From contig JAFMAU010000043.1 of assembly GCA_029784825.1 (NCBI GenBank), positions 1 to 15,673 of the forward strand: 15,673 bases of DNA. Direction: 5' to 3'. The first letter of the stretch is position 1. Each line of letters opens with the position of its first letter. Below the pieces are notes generated by a model, which saw only the letters and a list, made by a program, of their open reading frames with translations, did not search any database and was not told the origin of the DNA. Origin of the DNA: Nitrososphaerota archaeon. GTDB lineage: Archaea > Thermoproteota > Nitrososphaeria > Nitrososphaerales > UBA183. The position numbers and the translations under genes are program-made. Positions 4,722-13,739 of this stretch are shown here, piece after piece.

Positions 4722-7700
4722 ATGCAAAACGAACTTTCTGAAGCCAGACAGAAGATGGACACTCCCTACGGCAGGGCACTGGTCTTCAACGCCCAGTCGC
4801 TCAAGGCGCGCGGGTACGAAGTCGAGAGGCTGCCCTACTCGGTCAAGGTACTGCTCGAGAACGCCCTCAGGCACGCCGACAAGGTGGCCGGGGCGGAGGA
4901 GGCTGCACGGAGCCTGCTCGAGTGGCCGAGGAGAACGGGCGGTGAACTCCCGCTGATGCCGTTCAGGGTGCTGCTCCAGGACTACACCGGGGTGCCCCTG
5001 GTCGTGGACCTGGCCGCGATGAGGGACGCTGCGGCGGCTTCAGGGTTGAGCGCCAAGCTCGTGAACTCGAAGATCCCGGTCGACCTGATAATCGACCATT
5101 CCGTACAGGTCGACGCCTGGAGCAGCGAAGGCGCGTTCGACACGAACCTGGAGAGGGAGTACGAGCGGAATTCAGAGCGCTATTCGCTGCTGAAGTGGGC
5201 GCAGACCGCATTCGGAGGGATGCGGGTCTTCCCACCAGGAAAGGGGATCTGCCACCAGGTGAACCTGGAGTACCTCTCCAAGGTGGTGGCCACCTCGGAC
5301 GACGCCGGCGTGCTCCAGGCATTCCCGGACACAGTCCTTGGGACGGACTCCCACACCACGATGGTGAACGGCATGGGGGTCCTGGGCTGGGGAGTCGGAG
5401 GGATAGAGGCCGAGGCCGTCATGCTTGGGGAGCCCTACCACATGCCGATACCTGAGGTCCTCGGAGTCAAACTCACCGGAAGCCTGCAGGAAGGGGTGAC
5501 GCCTACGGACATGGTGCTCGCCGTGACGGAGAGGCTGCGAGAGAAGAGCGTGGTCGGCAAGTTCGTTGAGTACTTCGGCGACGGATACGGGAATCTGACG
5601 GTCCCCGACAGGGCGACGCTGGGGAACATGTCTCCAGAATACGGCGCAACCGTCGGGTACAGCCCGGTCGACGAAGCGACCCTCGCCTATCTCCTCGGCA
5701 CGGGAAGGGAGAAATCCCACGTCGAGTTCGTGAGGAAGTACGCAACGGAGACAGGACTGCTCCGTTCCGGCAGCGAACCGAAGTACTCGGAAGTGCTCGT
5801 CATAGACCTGGACAAGGTGGAACCGTCCATCGCGGGCCCGAGGAACCCAGAGGAAAGGCGGCCGCTCAGGTCGGTGCCTGCCTTCGCGAAGACCTTCCTC
5901 GCCGAGTACCGAAGGGCGGCGAGTCCAAGTCCTCAGACGGCGGTCCCCACCTCCTCCGGGGCCCAATCGACCCTCCAACGCGGCCGCGAAGCGGACGCCC
6001 TCGAAGACGGCGCGGTTGTGATCGCCGCCATAACAAGCTGCACCAACACCTCCAACCCGACCGTCATGGTGGGGGCTGGTCTCCTCGCCAAGAAGGCTGT
6101 CGAGGCCGGACTGAGCCCCAAGCCGTGGGTGAAGCGGAGCCTCGCGCCCGGTTCGACGGTGGTCACGGACTACCTCAACAACTCTGGACTGCTTCCTTAC
6201 CTCGACAGGCTCGGCTTCAACGTCGTGGGATACGGCTGCACGACGTGCATTGCCGAAGGAACGCCCATCTTGTTGGCTAACGGCACTGCCAGACCCATCG
6301 AGAGTATACCAGCAGAAGGCGGTGCTTTGGTATTTGGTCCCACCGCCAAGGGCAGGTTAGGAATCGCCCGACAATCAGTGCTCATGGAGAAGGGTATGCG
6401 CGACTGTATCAGAATCGTGCTGCAGGATGGACGATCGCTGATTTGCACACCAGACCACAAGATTCTCCGTTCAGACGGGTGTTGGGTCAGGGCGGATGAA
6501 CTCGTACTAGGGAAGGATCGCGTAATCGTAGGGCTTGAAGGGCCTCTTGACAATCCAGGCGACGACGAATCTAGTTATGTTCTACACGCGGACAATCTAG
6601 TCTTCAGAATGGATACGCAACAAGCTCGAGTTCGTACGCTGGCATTCGCACGATTGCTCGGCCATCTTCTCAACGATGGATCGATCAGTGCCTTAGGGCA
6701 GGGCCGGATGACCGCAGGCCAAGCTGTGGACCGTGAGATGATACTCAACGACGTAGAATTACTCACGGGGCTTCGACCGGCCGCCAATCGCTACGACGAT
6801 CGGAAATGGTCCATCATATTACCAATGGCGCTTACGAAGGCCATCATCGCACTGCGTGGCGTGCAGACGGGGAGGCGTATCGATCAGCCCCCCATACTTC
6901 CTGAGTTTGTGTGCCAGAATGATTGTCCCATGGCAGTGGTTCGGGAGTTCCTGGGTGGACTCTTTGGAGCCGATGGGCATGCGCCTACTCTGCATCGCTG
7001 GGGGAAGCGGGAAGAGGACGCGACCCTTGAACCACCGGCGTATTCTCAGAGCACCATTCCCGCCCATTTGGAGCAATCAAAGGAGATGATGCGCGAAGTA
7101 ATTCATCTATTGGCACGGTGCGGTGTCAAGACTGAAGGTGCAAGAGTATGCGAATATCCAACGCGTAGGAGCAGTTCGTCTTATGCCGCAGCTCGAGACG
7201 GTGTACCACGGATCGAAGTGCGCCTAGATTTGCCGGACGGCCTCTCTTTCATCGAACATGTGGGTTTCCGTTACAGTGTAGACAAGGCAATGCGTGCCAG
7301 TGCAGCTGCTGTGTACTGGCGCCTTGTGGAGGGTATCCAAAGACAGCGGCTCTGGATGGCGGCCCGCCTGGAAGAATTTCATAAAGACGAACCTGCGTTG
7401 TCATTTTCTCGGGCGCGACAGCTGGTAGCCGTATCATTGCTAGGTCACGAGACAGAGGACCCTTTGCCTCCAGTAGTGTCGCCTCATTATGCATTGCTTG
7501 AGGGTTACGACCGGTTCTCGCGTCTTCCAAGGGCGACTGACCGCAGATTCCAGCCGTTGCATCGCGAAAGTTGCAATTTCCTGTCACCTGTGACGTTGCT
7601 CAAGCAGCTTGGTGTGCGAGAGTGGTTCGCTCCGCTCCGACGTACGGCAAAGACTGAGCGCGGCAGGCGATACTGTGTAGAAAAGGAAGCGTTGACTCTA

Positions 7701-8990
7701 CCGACTTTTTCACTTCAGGTCGTCGACCGAAGTCCAGCGGGACAGAAATTGGTCTATGACCTGACTGTGAGTGATTTGCACGCATTCATTGCAGGCACAG
7801 TGGCCGTTCACAATTGTATCGGCAACAGCGGTCCGCTGGCTCCAGAAATCGAGCAGGAAATCAAGGCGGGGGATCTCTACGCCGTCGCCGTCCTCTCGGG
7901 CAACAGGAACTTCGACGGCAGAATCAACCCGCTCGCGAAGGGAGCCTTCCTGATGTCGCCCATGCTGGTCGTCGCCTACGCCCTAGCTGGGAAGATCGGT
8001 TTCGACTTCCAGAACGCGCCCCTGGGCGCCGGGAAGGACGGAAGGCAGGTCTTCCTCAGGGACATCTGGCCCACCATGAAGGAGATAGGGCGGGTGGTCG
8101 AGAAATCGCTCTCGCCTCAGCTCTACAGGATCCGCTACGCCGAGGCCATGAAGGGCGACAGCAGGTGGGATGGGCTGGGCGCGAACTCGGACGAAAGGTA
8201 CAGCTGGGACCGCGACTCCACCTATGTAAGACAGCCTCCTTGGTTCGAACCGGAGCAGTCAAGGTCAGCGAAGTCCGACGTGACAGGCGCGAGGGTGCTC
8301 GCGGTCCTCGACGACAAGGTCACCACCGACCACATCTCGCCGGCGGGCGCCATAGCATTCGACAGTCCTGCCGGAAATTACCTGACATCCAAGGGCGTTG
8401 AGATGGTCCGCTTCAGCACCTACGGCAGTCGCAGGGGGAACCACGAGGTGATGGTGAGGGGCGGTTTCGCCAACATCAGACTCAGAAACGCCCTCGCCCC
8501 CGGAAAGGAGGGCGGCTGGACCACTCACCTTCCCTCTGGGGAGACGATGTCGATCTTCGATGCGGCAGTGAAGTACCGTGCAGCCAAGACTCCTCTGCTG
8601 ATTATCGCAGGCAAGCAGTACGGAGCGGGCAGCTCTAGGGACTGGGCCGCCAAGGCGCCGAAGCTGCTCGGCGTTCGCGCGGTCATCGCGGAAAGCTTCG
8701 AGAGGATCCACCGGAGCAACCTCGTAGCCATGGGCGTCCTGCCCCTCCAGTTCATGAAAGGCCAGAGCCGCGCCTCCCTGGGGCTCGAGGGCGACGAGAC
8801 GTTCGACATCTTCGGTGTCTCCGCGATGTCCAAGCCCGACGAATCCATAGAGGTAGTCGCCAGGGGCACCGCGGGGGAGAAGAGATTCAAAGTGCTGTGC
8901 AGAATCGACAACTCGACCGAGATGCAGTATGTCGAACGGGGCGGAGTCCTTCCCTTCGTCCTGGCCAGAGTGCACAACTCTGTACATTGA
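4722..8990 (+). CDS. acnA: aconitate hydratase A (aconitase) interrupted by an intein
   Basis: The precursor is 1422 residues; removing the 523-residue intein (509-1031) leaves 899, the standard AcnA/IRP-type length. Aconitase interconverts citrate and isocitrate in the TCA cycle through a [4Fe-4S] cluster. Visible landmarks are TDSHTT (208-213) with the long GMGVLGWGVGGIEAEAVMLG stretch after it, ITSCTNTSNP with cluster Cys440, GYGCTT with Cys506, and the third ligand supplied by Cys1032, which becomes residue 509 after splicing. The C-terminal swivel domain has TTDHISPAG, RGNHEVMVRGGFANIRLRN and GSSRDWAAK (precursor about 1303-1311). Mature ligand spacing 440/506/509 mirrors human IRP1 437/503/506. 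ATG 4722 is one base after the transporter stop; Met12 is another possible start. No strong ribosome site is seen. Function depends on splicing; the unspliced chain would have a broken cluster site. Confidence 0.95.
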   Translation: MQNELSEARQKMDTPYGRALVFNAQSLKARGYEVERLPYSVKVLLENALRHADKVAGAEEAARSLLEWPRRTGGELPLMPFRVLLQDYTGVPLVVDLAAMRDAAAASGLSAKLVNSKIPVDLIIDHSVQVDAWSSEGAFDTNLEREYERNSERYSLLKWAQTAFGGMRVFPPGKGICHQVNLEYLSKVVATSDDAGVLQAFPDTVLGTDSHTTMVNGMGVLGWGVGGIEAEAVMLGEPYHMPIPEVLGVKLTGSLQEGVTPTDMVLAVTERLREKSVVGKFVEYFGDGYGNLTVPDRATLGNMSPEYGATVGYSPVDEATLAYLLGTGREKSHVEFVRKYATETGLLRSGSEPKYSEVLVIDLDKVEPSIAGPRNPEERRPLRSVPAFAKTFLAEYRRAASPSPQTAVPTSSGAQSTLQRGREADALEDGAVVIAAITSCTNTSNPTVMVGAGLLAKKAVEAGLSPKPWVKRSLAPGSTVVTDYLNNSGLLPYLDRLGFNVVGYGCTTCIAEGTPILLANGTARPIESIPAEGGALVFGPTAKGRLGIARQSVLMEKGMRDCIRIVLQDGRSLICTPDHKILRSDGCWVRADELVLGKDRVIVGLEGPLDNPGDDESSYVLHADNLVFRMDTQQARVRTLAFARLLGHLLNDGSISALGQGRMTAGQAVDREMILNDVELLTGLRPAANRYDDRKWSIILPMALTKAIIALRGVQTGRRIDQPPILPEFVCQNDCPMAVVREFLGGLFGADGHAPTLHRWGKREEDATLEPPAYSQSTIPAHLEQSKEMMREVIHLLARCGVKTEGARVCEYPTRRSSSSYAAARDGVPRIEVRLDLPDGLSFIEHVGFRYSVDKAMRASAAAVYWRLVEGIQRQRLWMAARLEEFHKDEPALSFSRARQLVAVSLLGHETEDPLPPVVSPHYALLEGYDRFSRLPRATDRRFQPLHRESCNFLSPVTLLKQLGVREWFAPLRRTAKTERGRRYCVEKEALTLPTFSLQVVDRSPAGQKLVYDLTVSDLHAFIAGTVAVHNCIGNSGPLAPEIEQEIKAGDLYAVAVLSGNRNFDGRINPLAKGAFLMSPMLVVAYALAGKIGFDFQNAPLGAGKDGRQVFLRDIWPTMKEIGRVVEKSLSPQLYRIRYAEAMKGDSRWDGLGANSDERYSWDRDSTYVRQPPWFEPEQSRSAKSDVTGARVLAVLDDKVTTDHISPAGAIAFDSPAGNYLTSKGVEMVRFSTYGSRRGNHEVMVRGGFANIRLRNALAPGKEGGWTTHLPSGETMSIFDAAVKYRAAKTPLLIIAGKQYGAGSSRDWAAKAPKLLGVRAVIAESFERIHRSNLVAMGVLPLQFMKGQSRASLGLEGDETFDIFGVSAMSKPDESIEVVARGTAGEKRFKVLCRIDNSTEMQYVERGGVLPFVLARVHNSVH
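6246..7814 (+). mobile_element. intein with LAGLIDADG homing endonuclease, in AcnA
   Basis: The in-frame insert encodes 523 residues, from Cys1 of CIAEGTPILL to the terminal VAVHN, followed by C+1 of CIGNSG. Splicing blocks are present in order: block A (1-13); block B with TPDH at 68-71; LAGLIDADG motif LLGHLLNDG (137-145, Asp144); LGGLFGADG (236-244, Asp243); a block H-like FRYSVDKAMRASAAAVYWR (341-359); block F VYDLTVSDLHAFIA (503-516); and block G ending His522-Asn523. No stop or frameshift interrupts it, so it should self-excise and join GCTT to CIGNSG. Both endonuclease aspartates are kept, so homing activity is plausible. Spot GC counts of 30/60 and 31/60 inside, against 39/60 and 42/60 in flanking aconitase, and freer use of A/T-ending codons point to horizontal acquisition. 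Several extra cysteines (54, 67, 79, 223, 227) could matter for redox behaviour. Confidence 0.96.
6606..7385 (+). other. homing endonuclase domain of the AcnA intein (approximate limits)
   Basis: Intein residues about 121-380 separate the two halves of the splicing domain. Two LAGLIDADG helices, 137-145 and 236-244, are about 100 residues apart, as in single-chain, pseudo-dimeric enzymes. Each ends in Asp-Gly, supplying the two metal-binding acids. GADGHAPTLHRWGKR after the second helix resembles that of large archaeal and eukaryotic inteins. The natural target would be the uninterrupted acnA sequence around the codons for GCTTCIGNSG. The limits are estimated from the blocks, not from structure. 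Confidence 0.8.
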
Positions 8991-10071: not shown

Positions 10072-10386
10072 ATAGCGCCAAGAAAGGAAGCGAAGCCGAG
10101 GAAGCCGGCCGTCAGGCGCAAGAAAGCCAAAGAGGACGAGGTCCCACCCTTCAAGATCAGCACTCACTTCCTGATTCCAAAGCACGAGCTCCTCACCAAG
10201 GAAGAGGCCCAGCAGGTAGTCGCAAAGTCGAACGCGAAACCTAGCCAGTTTCCCTTCCTACTCGCCACCGACCCGCTCGCCAAGGAGATCGGGGCCAAGC
10301 CCGGCGACTTCGTGCGCATAACGCGCAACAGCGAGACCGCCGGTTCCAGCACCTACTACAGGTACGTCGTGGAGGGAGGGGCATGA
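10072..10386 (+). CDS. rpoH: RNA polymerase subunit Rpo5 (RpoH), no standard start codon
   Basis: The archaeal counterpart of eukaryotic Rpb5 C-terminal domain sits in the jaw of RNA polymerase. The conserved body is clear: FKISTHFLIPKHELLTKEEA, FPFLLATDPLAKEIGAKPGD, and FVRITRNSETAGSSTYYRYV near the end. Its TGA overlaps the rpo2 ATG (ATGA at 10383-10386), the normal rpoH-rpoB order. A Lys/Arg-rich tail of about 25 residues precedes the core. The frame opens after TAA at 10036-10038 and contains no ATG, GTG or TTG before the core. From ATA at 10072 it would encode 104 residues. Alternatives are a start at ATG 10056 or GTG 10062 in the next frame followed by a +1 shift near 10080-10090, or a one-base sequence error there. 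The gene identity is firm; the start is not. Confidence 0.88.
   Translation: MAPRKEAKPRKPAVRRKKAKEDEVPPFKISTHFLIPKHELLTKEEAQQVVAKSNAKPSQFPFLLATDPLAKEIGAKPGDFVRITRNSETAGSSTYYRYVVEGGA
10371..10376 (+). promoter_or_regulatory. ribosome-binding site for rpo2 inside rpo5
   Basis: GGAGGG lies 6 bases before the rpo2 ATG at 10383. Together with the ATGA overlap it indicates coupled translation of Rpo5 and Rpo2. Confidence 0.6.
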
Positions 10387-13300
10387 GCAAACAGATCATA
10401 AAGTCAAACTCCTGGATAATCCTACGCGACCTCCTCGAGAGGGAAGGGGTGGCGAGGCAGCACCTCAACAGCTACAACGAGTTCGTCACCAAGGGGCTGC
10501 AGAATATCATCGACGAGATAGGTGAGATCGAGGTCGAGACCGTCAGCACGCCCTACAAGATCAAGCTGGGCCGCGTCACCCTCGGGCCCTCGCGCGTGGT
10601 GGAGATCGACGGCTCCATCAGCAGCGTCCTTCCCATGGAAGCCAGGCTCAGGAACCTGACCTACTCGGCTCCCATAATGCTCGAGATGACCATAGAGGAG
10701 GAGGGGCTCCCCAGGGACACAGCCAGGCAGCACATCGGCGACCTCCCGGTGATGGTGAAGTCGGAGCTCTGCCAGCTCTCCAACAAGACCAAGGAACAGC
10801 TCATCGACGTCGGCGAGGACCCCAACGACCCGGGAGGTTACTTCATAATCAACGGCGCCGAGCGCGTCATAGTCGGGCTGGAGGACCTCTCGCCCAACAA
10901 GATCCTGGTGGACGCCGAGAAGGTGTCGGGCGCGACGACCTACAAGTCCAGGGTCTACTCTTCGGTCGTGGGCTACAGGTCGAAGCTTGAGCTGACGCTG
11001 AAGCAGGACGGCGCCATCAACGTGAAGGTGCCCAGCTGCCCAGTCGACCTTCCCTTCGTGATTGTCATGCGGGCCCTTGGCATAAAATCCGACAAGGACA
11101 TCGCGGATTCGATATCGCCAAAGCCGGAGATACAGGACCTCCTCGAGGTCTCCTTCGACAAGGCGAGCGAGGCGCCGACGGACAAGGACGCCCTGGTGTA
11201 CATCGGCAACAGGGTCGCCCACGGCATGCTCGAGGAGTTCCGTGTCAAGAGGGCTCTTTCGATGCTCGACTGGGGGCTCCTGCCGCACTTGGGCAAGACC
11301 GACGACAGACGCTACGACAAAGCAATGTTCATGGGCGAGGCGGTCTGCAAGCTCCTCGAGCTGAGGCTCGGCTGGATAGGCCCCGACGACAAGGACCACT
11401 ACGGCAACAAGGTGATCAAGTTCGCGGGACAGATGCTTGCGGATCTGTTCAGGACCGCGTTCAGGAACCTGGTCCGGGACATGAAGTACCAGCTCGAGAG
11501 GACAGGCCAGAAGCGGGGCGGCAACGTCGTGGGTGCGGCCATCCGCACGGGCATCATAACCGACAAGCTGAACAACGCGATTGCGACTGGCAACTGGGGC
11601 AGGGGCAAGGTTGGCGTCACCCAGCTGCTCGACAGGACCAACTACCTCAGCACCCTGAGCCACCTGAGGCGGGTCCAGTCCCCGCTCTCCAGGAGCCAGC
11701 CCAACTTCGAGGCCAGAGACCTCCACGCGACCCACTTCGGAAGGATATGCCCCTCAGAGACCCCCGAGGGCGTCAACTGCGGCCTGGTCAAGAACCTGGC
11801 CCTCTCCGCCACAATCTCGGTGGGAGTCCCTTCCACGGAGGTGGAGGAGAAGCTGTGGGAGCTGGGCGCCAAACCGATCAGGGATGCGGAGCAGAAGCTC
11901 CAGGTCAACGGCTGCAGGATATTCATGGACGGAAGGTTCCTCGGCTACGTGGACGACGGCGAAAGGCTCGCCAAGGCGTTCAGGAAGCTGAGGCGGGAGG
12001 GCCAGATCAACCCCGGCGCTAGCGTCCTCTTCGTGCCTCCCATCAACGACAAGGCGTATCCGAGGCTCTACATCAGCCTCAGTTCCGGCAGAGTCCTCAG
12101 GCCGCTGATAGTCTCCGAGAACGGAAGGTCGCTGCTCACGCCCGAGCTGATAGAGAAGGTCTCCGCCGGACAGCTCTCATGGAGGGACCTCGTCGAGCAG
12201 GGCGTCGTCGAACTGATCGACGCCAACGAGGAAGAGAACTCGCTGGTCTGCATGGACGCCGAGGAGGCCACGGCGAAGCACACCCACATTGAGCTCTTCC
12301 CCGCGGCCATGTTCGGCATAGCTGCATCGGTGATTCCGTATCCGGAGCACAACCAGTCTCCCAGGAACACCTACGAGTCAGCAATGGCGAAGCAGAGCCT
12401 GGGCTTCTCTTCTCCCACCTATCCTATCTCCCCCCACGTGAGGCAGCACCTGCTGGTCAGCCCGCAGGCTCCGGTGGTGAGGACCAGGACCCTTGACCTG
12501 CTGAAGATAGACGAAAGGCCGCTGGGCCAGAACTGCACGGTCGCGGTGCTCTCATTCGAGGGCTACAACATCGAGGACGCGATAATCATGAACAAGTCGA
12601 GCGTCGAGCGGGGCCTCGCGCGCTCGTTCTTCTACAGACTCTACGAGGGGGAGGCGAAGCAGTACCTCGGAGGCATGAGGGACACCTTCGAAGTCCCCTC
12701 GGCCGAGTCCAACATCAGGGGATACAGGGGCGAGAAGTTCTACAGGCTGCTCGAGGGCGACGGGGTCATCTCCCACGAGGCACAGGTCTCCGGAGGAGAC
12801 GTCGTGATCGGCAGGACAAGCCCGCCGAGGTTCATGGAGGAGTACAAGGAATTCGAGATCAAGGGACCCTACAGGAGGGACACGTCGGTGGCCGTCAGGC
12901 CGTCCGAGTCCGGCGTCGTCGACTCCATCTTCATGACCGAGAACGTCGAAGGCGGCAGGATGTTCAAGGTCAGGGTGAGGGACATGCGCGTGCCGGAGAT
13001 CGGCGACAAGTTCGCCTCCAGGCACGGCCAGAAGGGTGTGGTGGGCCTGGTGGTGCCCCAGGAGGACATGCCCTACACCGCCGAGGGAATAGTTCCAGAC
13101 GTCATAATCAACCCCCACGCGTTCCCGTCCAGGATGACCGTGGGCCAGTTCATAGAGTCGATCGCCGGCAAGGCGGGCGCGCTGAGAGGGTCGCCCGTCG
13201 ACGGTTCCGCCTTCGCAGGCGAAAGCATCGAGGAGCTGGAGAAGGTCCTGCGCTCCAGGGGCTTCGAGCCGACCGGCAGAGAGGTGATGTACGACGGCAA

Positions 13301-13739
13301 GACGGGGAAGAAGTTCGCTGCAGACGTCTTCATGGGCGTGGTCTACTATCAGAAGCTCCACCACATGGTCGCCGACAAGATCCACGCGAGGGCGAGGGGC
13401 CAGGTTCAGATGCTCACCAAGCAGCCCACCGAGGGGCGCGCCAGGGGAGGCGGGCTCAGGTTCGGCGAGATGGAAAGGGACTGCCTCATCGCCTACGGGG
13501 CGTCCATGGTGCTGAAGGACAGGTTGCTCGACGAAGCCGACAAGACAGAGATCTACGTCTGCGAAAAGTGCGGGCTGATTGCCTATTACGACGCAAAGCA
13601 GAGGAAGTACACGTGCAAGATAGACGGAGACCAGGCGAAGATCTCGACCGTGGTGGTCGCCTACGCGTTCAAACTCCTGCTGCAGGAGATGATGAGCCTC
13701 AACATTGCTCCGAGGCTGCAGCTGAAGGACAAGGTGTAG
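10383..13739 (+). CDS. rpoB: DNA-directed RNA polymerase subunit Rpo2 (B), unsplit
   Basis: This 1118-residue protein is the complete second-largest subunit of RNA polymerase; it is not divided into B'' and B' as in many methanogens and halophiles. Landmarks include GYFIINGAERVIVGLEDLSP near 156-175, ESAMAKQSLGF, the EGYNIEDAIIMNKSSVERG catalytic-face motif, GDKFASRHGQKG (874-885), NPHAFPSRMTVGQFIE, and the C-terminal clamp-side stretch AYAFKLLLQEM. The C-terminal zinc site reads Cys1060-x2-Cys1063-x14-Cys1078-x2-Asp1081, so the fourth position, usually Cys, is Asp. It overlaps rpo5 by ATGA and is followed 4 bases later by rpo1N, forming the core polymerase operon. Base composition is uniform with its neighbours and no insertion is visible. 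Confidence 0.98.
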   Translation: MSKQIIKSNSWIILRDLLEREGVARQHLNSYNEFVTKGLQNIIDEIGEIEVETVSTPYKIKLGRVTLGPSRVVEIDGSISSVLPMEARLRNLTYSAPIMLEMTIEEEGLPRDTARQHIGDLPVMVKSELCQLSNKTKEQLIDVGEDPNDPGGYFIINGAERVIVGLEDLSPNKILVDAEKVSGATTYKSRVYSSVVGYRSKLELTLKQDGAINVKVPSCPVDLPFVIVMRALGIKSDKDIADSISPKPEIQDLLEVSFDKASEAPTDKDALVYIGNRVAHGMLEEFRVKRALSMLDWGLLPHLGKTDDRRYDKAMFMGEAVCKLLELRLGWIGPDDKDHYGNKVIKFAGQMLADLFRTAFRNLVRDMKYQLERTGQKRGGNVVGAAIRTGIITDKLNNAIATGNWGRGKVGVTQLLDRTNYLSTLSHLRRVQSPLSRSQPNFEARDLHATHFGRICPSETPEGVNCGLVKNLALSATISVGVPSTEVEEKLWELGAKPIRDAEQKLQVNGCRIFMDGRFLGYVDDGERLAKAFRKLRREGQINPGASVLFVPPINDKAYPRLYISLSSGRVLRPLIVSENGRSLLTPELIEKVSAGQLSWRDLVEQGVVELIDANEEENSLVCMDAEEATAKHTHIELFPAAMFGIAASVIPYPEHNQSPRNTYESAMAKQSLGFSSPTYPISPHVRQHLLVSPQAPVVRTRTLDLLKIDERPLGQNCTVAVLSFEGYNIEDAIIMNKSSVERGLARSFFYRLYEGEAKQYLGGMRDTFEVPSAESNIRGYRGEKFYRLLEGDGVISHEAQVSGGDVVIGRTSPPRFMEEYKEFEIKGPYRRDTSVAVRPSESGVVDSIFMTENVEGGRMFKVRVRDMRVPEIGDKFASRHGQKGVVGLVVPQEDMPYTAEGIVPDVIINPHAFPSRMTVGQFIESIAGKAGALRGSPVDGSAFAGESIEELEKVLRSRGFEPTGREVMYDGKTGKKFAADVFMGVVYYQKLHHMVADKIHARARGQVQMLTKQPTEGRARGGGLRFGEMERDCLIAYGASMVLKDRLLDEADKTEIYVCEKCGLIAYYDAKQRKYTCKIDGDQAKISTVVVAYAFKLLLQEMMSLNIAPRLQLKDKV
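13731..13736 (+). promoter_or_regulatory. ribosome-binding site for rpo1N at the end of rpo2
   Basis: AAGGTG directly precedes the rpo2 stop codon and lies 7 bases before the ATG at 13744, which selects this start over the second ATG two codons later. Confidence 0.5.

Follow-up and report, generated by a model that had tools for sequence, protein, structure and literature searches.

The window, a 15,673-nucleotide stretch of DNA from a Nitrososphaerota archaeon, carries in order the genes for a DUF255 thioredoxin-domain protein (minus strand), a MarR regulator, an MFS transporter, AcnA, a class IV aminotransferase and two RNA polymerase subunits, the last of which is truncated by the window end; the second subunit gene is presumably what we call it, the name resting on its sequence. 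The AcnA precursor scores 1240 bits against NF006757 (cut-off 686) and 1220 bits against TIGR01341 (cut-off 945), the latter a full-length AcnA match, and by these scores the host protein is an aconitase of the AcnA / IRP1 type in which the three cluster cysteines are present. Features of the gene are collected in Table 1.

Table 1. Predicted features of the acnA gene, in window coordinates
Feature	Position	Strand	Description	Basis
AcnA precursor gene	4722..8990	+	1422 codons plus stop	family-model matches
N-extein	4722..6245	+	AcnA residues 1-508	aligned to IRP1 structure
Cys440 codon	6039..6041	+	first cluster ligand	alignment to IRP1
Cys506 codon	6237..6239	+	second cluster ligand, extein position -3	153/153 rows
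Intein	6246..7814	+	523 aa, Cys1 to Asn523; precursor residues 509-1031	
Splicing block B	6447..6458	+	T68-P-D-H71	T68 and H71 in 153/153 rows
LAGLIDADG homing endonuclease region	6627..7676	+	intein residues about 128-477	
LAGLIDADG motif 1	6654..6680	+	catalytic Asp144	sequence alignment
LAGLIDADG motif 2	6951..6977	+	catalytic Asp243	sequence alignment
Splicing blocks F and G	7752..7814	+	V503-Y-D505 ... H522-N523	sequence alignment
Cys509 codon	7815..7817	+	third cluster ligand, splicing nucleophile C+1	153/153 rows
C-extein	7815..8987	+	mature AcnA residues 509-899; begins CIGNSG	

The original prediction held that an intein sits exactly at a cluster cysteine of aconitase and that its C+1 nucleophile doubles as the third cluster ligand, and both points are borne out: excision of the 523 residues in silico yields an 899-aa AcnA with GCTTCIGNSG intact and Cys440, Cys506 and Cys509 all present, and C+1 coincides with Cys509 in every aligned precursor. 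The three cysteines align with the ligand positions of IRP1. Because C+1 is Cys509 itself, the mature third ligand would be put in place solely through splicing.

Splicing and endonuclease anatomy

Conservation was scored in an alignment of 153 rows, drawn from the window, from 32 loci in other genomes that have both junctions, and from the 120 proteins listed among 870 matches; nine loci without a C-junction were excluded, and one of the 120 proteins (P0001) is 100% identical and probably derives from the window's own organism. By its residues the insert is a complete class 1 intein of the form C1...HN/C+1, with C1, N523, C+1 and D505 each found in all 153 rows and H522 in 150, the other three having Ser. 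This penultimate Ser occurs in loci L003, L010 and L030. The predicted intein structure (mean pLDDT 88.8) contains both a HINT fold and a LAGLIDADG fold, the latter with structural matches to PI-PfuI, E-DreI and I-Tsp061I; the structure alignments had 76 and 64 rows, with 43 of the 120 proteins in each. Among Pfam models, the one for inteins fell short of its threshold when run against the whole precursor, and LAGLIDADG_3 stayed below its own in every case.

Both endonuclease acids (D or E) are kept in the window, as Asp144 and Asp243, and in 147 of the 153 rows. An acid is lost in the remaining six, so some copies are presumably not mobile. Two of these six, L044 (2-3871; 443 aa) and L026 (3-4049; 476 aa), are shortened inteins that retain C1, HN and C+1. 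NG86 ratios for the endonuclease were 0.04-0.21 in those 10 of 13 pairs that allowed their computation, and lend weak support only, because many dS values lie near or beyond saturation. Elsewhere in the intein, cysteines C54, C67 and C227 are invariant across the 153 rows and C292 is found in 152, and a structural, metal or redox role for these residues is possible; in the Mtu RecA intein, positions 54 and 67 are Val and Ala.

Occurrence in other genomes and movement between hosts

An initial protein search scored 7995 candidates and returned 870 matches, and in all of the 120 listed, domains of both aconitase and intein are present and the match spans the entire intein, at 66-100% identity. 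One of them is even named "aconitase A/intein/homing endonuclease" (P0047), so the protein databases already hold intein-bearing aconitases. Species genomes were scanned with a DNA pattern that encodes GYGCTTC or GFGCTTC and requires Thr at intein position 6. The scan gave 83 matches, 41 of them AcnA frames with the intein start and 42 chance frames; the figure of 41 loci is a minimum, since the pattern overlooks variants such as CTSC that are found in proteins. The suggestion that the insertion might be rare thus fails on both counts, 870 proteins and 41 AcnA loci.

All 41 loci carry the titles of metagenome-assembled genomes (MAGs), and by those titles they belong to Chloroflexota (11), Gammaproteobacteria or "Proteobacteria" (14, one titled Deltaproteobacteria), Eisenbacteria (4), Omnitrophota (3), Acidobacteriota (1), Myxococcota (1), Nitrososphaerota or Thaumarchaeota (5), an "archaeon" (1) and a "bacterium" (1; L035), which places the intein in archaea and six bacterial phyla. 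Titles of this kind can mislead: the genome of L035 falls within the archaeal family, and L026 is titled Proteobacteria while its extein adjoins Ktedonobacteria. L007 and L073 share a common isolate name.

Both junctions were found in 32 loci besides the window, and the strict junction motif in 107 of the 120 listed proteins; the other 13 vary on the N-side (for example, CTSC) and end HN/CIGNSG. At 9 of the 41 loci (L005, L006, L007, L024, L043, L052, L061, L068 and L078) the C-junction is absent in frame, a count in which contig ends, frameshifts, assembly errors and real decay are not distinguished. Locus L002 (949-5337) has an open frame of 1463 aa, and the database protein presumed to come from the same locus, P0163, has 872 aa; gene callers seem to cut such precursors. 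Database entries annotated as AcnA that are about 1400 aa long, or that are cut fragments of AcnA, may be precursors.

A protein search with the intein alone gave 246 matches; the 120 of them listed show aconitase domains, intein domains or none, with no domain of a different host, and within that list no sister family in another host protein came to light. Carriage on viruses or plasmids was considered and rejected as far as the collections searched extend: no relative of the intein was found among viral contigs, searched with six peptide patterns, or in a plasmid collection, and a phage collection gave one distant match (22.8% identity across 72% of the query), which lies in the terminase gene of a phage known only from uncultured material.

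Relatives with an uninterrupted gene are numerous. In the family of G003, the archaeal genome with locus L080, 9 of 46 members have the intein and 28 an uninterrupted AcnA, with 9 unjudgeable; in the family of G009 the corresponding numbers are 2, 24 and 3 of 29. For the order of a further genome, G010, a sample of 78 genomes showed the intein only in G010 itself among the matches listed.

Intein and extein trees were built from 33 rows (loci and window) as quick trees without bootstrap. The intein tree unites the 7 archaeal rows in a single clade (SH-aLRT 99), whose placement within Chloroflexota rows has supports of 83-94, not starred. In the extein tree archaeal rows fall in two places, with five AcnAs, including those of the window and L035, apart from L053 and L071, whose grouping with an acidobacterial row carries a long-branch warning. 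For groups that were picked after the trees had been seen, AU tests rejected two extein groupings on the intein data (p-AU 0.006 and 0.0099), and gave a single archaeal clade a p-AU of 0.026 on the extein data, or 0.090 without the long-branched L018. Pairwise identities between the window and other loci are 70% for the intein and 52% for the extein with Chloroflexota L056, 69% and 52% with archaeal L071, and 67% and 71% with L059, its neighbor in the host tree. Because the two trees conflict, and because intein identity to L056 exceeds extein identity, we read this as an intein that moves independently of its host gene. Base composition was set aside as proof of recent arrival: GC3 in the window is 0.54 in the intein and 0.82 in the extein, and the intein has the lower value in 31 of the 33 loci.

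A search of an open-access library turned up no paper on an aconitase intein; joint mentions of intein and aconitase concerned unrelated topics in the portions of text retrieved, and the main text of one review (PMC5874633) does not contain "aconit". Of the earlier idea of a new or rare site, novelty thus stands within that literature and rarity does not. Since no open paper was found, even though databases already contain such proteins, aconitase offers an element of known kind a host and an insertion site that are new, unpublished within the searched literature, and frequent among uncultured microbes. With it a central metabolic Fe-S enzyme joins the hosts of inteins, one in which the nucleophile and the -3 residue are both cluster ligands.

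A probably mobile element at a cluster ligand, and alternative readings

The element is very probably a class 1 intein that is mobile, its two-motif LAGLIDADG endonuclease being intact, and that homed into acnA at the third-ligand codon. This account is based on its anatomy, the conservation of catalytic residues, the fold, the empty sites in relatives, and the tree conflict. The endonuclease would cut an empty acnA at the conserved GYGCTT^CIGNSG, and repair would copy the intein in. The resulting allele would be translated as a 1422-aa precursor, in which Cys1, the TxxH block, Asp505, Asn523 and Cys509 (C+1) are expected to perform canonical splicing, and the 899-aa apo-aconitase would acquire its [4Fe-4S] cluster afterward. 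An improbable alternative is that of a decaying, immobile intein which persists only since its precise loss is difficult; the six rows that have lost an endonuclease acid, including the two shortened inteins, are what such decay would leave, and against it stand the retention of both acids in the window and nearly all other rows and, subject to saturation, the low NG86 ratios. An assembly chimera or a non-splicing insertion is extremely improbable; against an assembly artefact, the junctions recur across assemblies, identically in the 32 further loci and in the proteins with the strict motif, and with an unchanged C-side in the N-side variants.

A further reading would make the intein an aconitase switch, beyond a parasite. 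MoaA is a radical-SAM Fe-S enzyme. Its intein in Pyrococcus abyssi forms a disulfide between Cys-3 and Cys1 that blocks splicing under oxidizing conditions, as described in two papers (PMC10663303, PMC3922620, citing Callahan 2011). The AcnA intein resembles the MoaA case in having an oxygen-labile host enzyme and a pair of cysteines, N-extein Cys-3 and intein Cys1, that can pair; it differs in its host, aconitase, and in that the disulfide is reported for MoaA and only possible in AcnA. The residue pair of the MoaA redox trap, Cys at -3 plus Cys at 1, is present in all 153 rows. Further, the N-part of the precursor contains Cys440, Cys506 and, in the place of Cys509, intein Cys1, with the C-T-T-C spacing preserved. 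Because these thiols retain the ligand spacing, a cluster or disulfide could form in the unspliced precursor, and the original prediction that the enzyme acquires its cluster only after splicing need not hold. On the switch reading, which we regard as unlikely, a Cys506-Cys1 disulfide, or an Fe-S cluster or metal bound with Cys440, would hold back splicing of the precursor until reducing conditions or enough iron prevail in the cell.

Several observations weigh against such gating. Aconitase function already requires Cys-3, whose conservation is therefore uninformative on regulation; as Cys506 would be kept regardless, redox gating counts as a possibility, short of a finding. The distribution of the intein is patchy, as expected of a parasite. 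In a 1200-residue model of the precursor both parts are folded, and the junctions are of low confidence (residues 505-508 and 1033-1035, pLDDT <50), with the relative placement of the parts not fixed (pTM 0.58). The more specific proposal, that splicing of AcnA is gated by cofactor chemistry, with Cys506-Cys1, and perhaps Cys440, C54 and C67, sensing redox state or cluster supply, we consider quite doubtful. If it were true, aconitase would be matured only when a cluster can be assembled and persist, and the element would be a recurrent post-translational switch of the citric acid cycle in archaea and, by record titles, six bacterial phyla. The archaea and bacteria that carry the intein have many relatives lacking it, which offers natural pairs for distinguishing a redox or iron sensor from a plain active-site parasite.

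Other known inteins offer further comparisons. The SufB intein of Mycobacterium tuberculosis is likewise canonical (C1, Asn, C+1) and lies in an Fe-S related protein (PMC8891592); SufB, however, builds clusters, and as described there its intein is not assigned to a cluster ligand. The best-scoring NCBIfam model for the AcnA intein is the intein-containing RtcB family (NF038162; residues 1-382, E 1.8e-11), whose match on the precursor begins seven residues before Cys1; the host is different, and the 42.8 bits are far under the model cut-off of 1150 bits. Similarly, the N-terminal splicing region of the Rv2578c-family intein-containing radical SAM protein (NF038136) aligns from five residues before Cys1, with a different host and a low score (34.9 bits; cut-off 700). 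The Mtu RecA intein and the Ssp DnaB mini-intein have DNA-metabolism hosts and, unlike the AcnA intein, chains of 139-160 residues without an endonuclease. A separate intein, of 501 aa, interrupts the gene for RNA polymerase subunit B in the related genome G003 (L114:275-5182, minus strand), at a distance of two genes from acnA, and this intein sits after SETPEGVN and ends HN/CGLVKN; the window's subunit B gene (10383-13739) is uninterrupted at that position. The subunit B intein bears a distant likeness to the AcnA intein (BLASTP, 23% over AcnA-intein residues 56-369).
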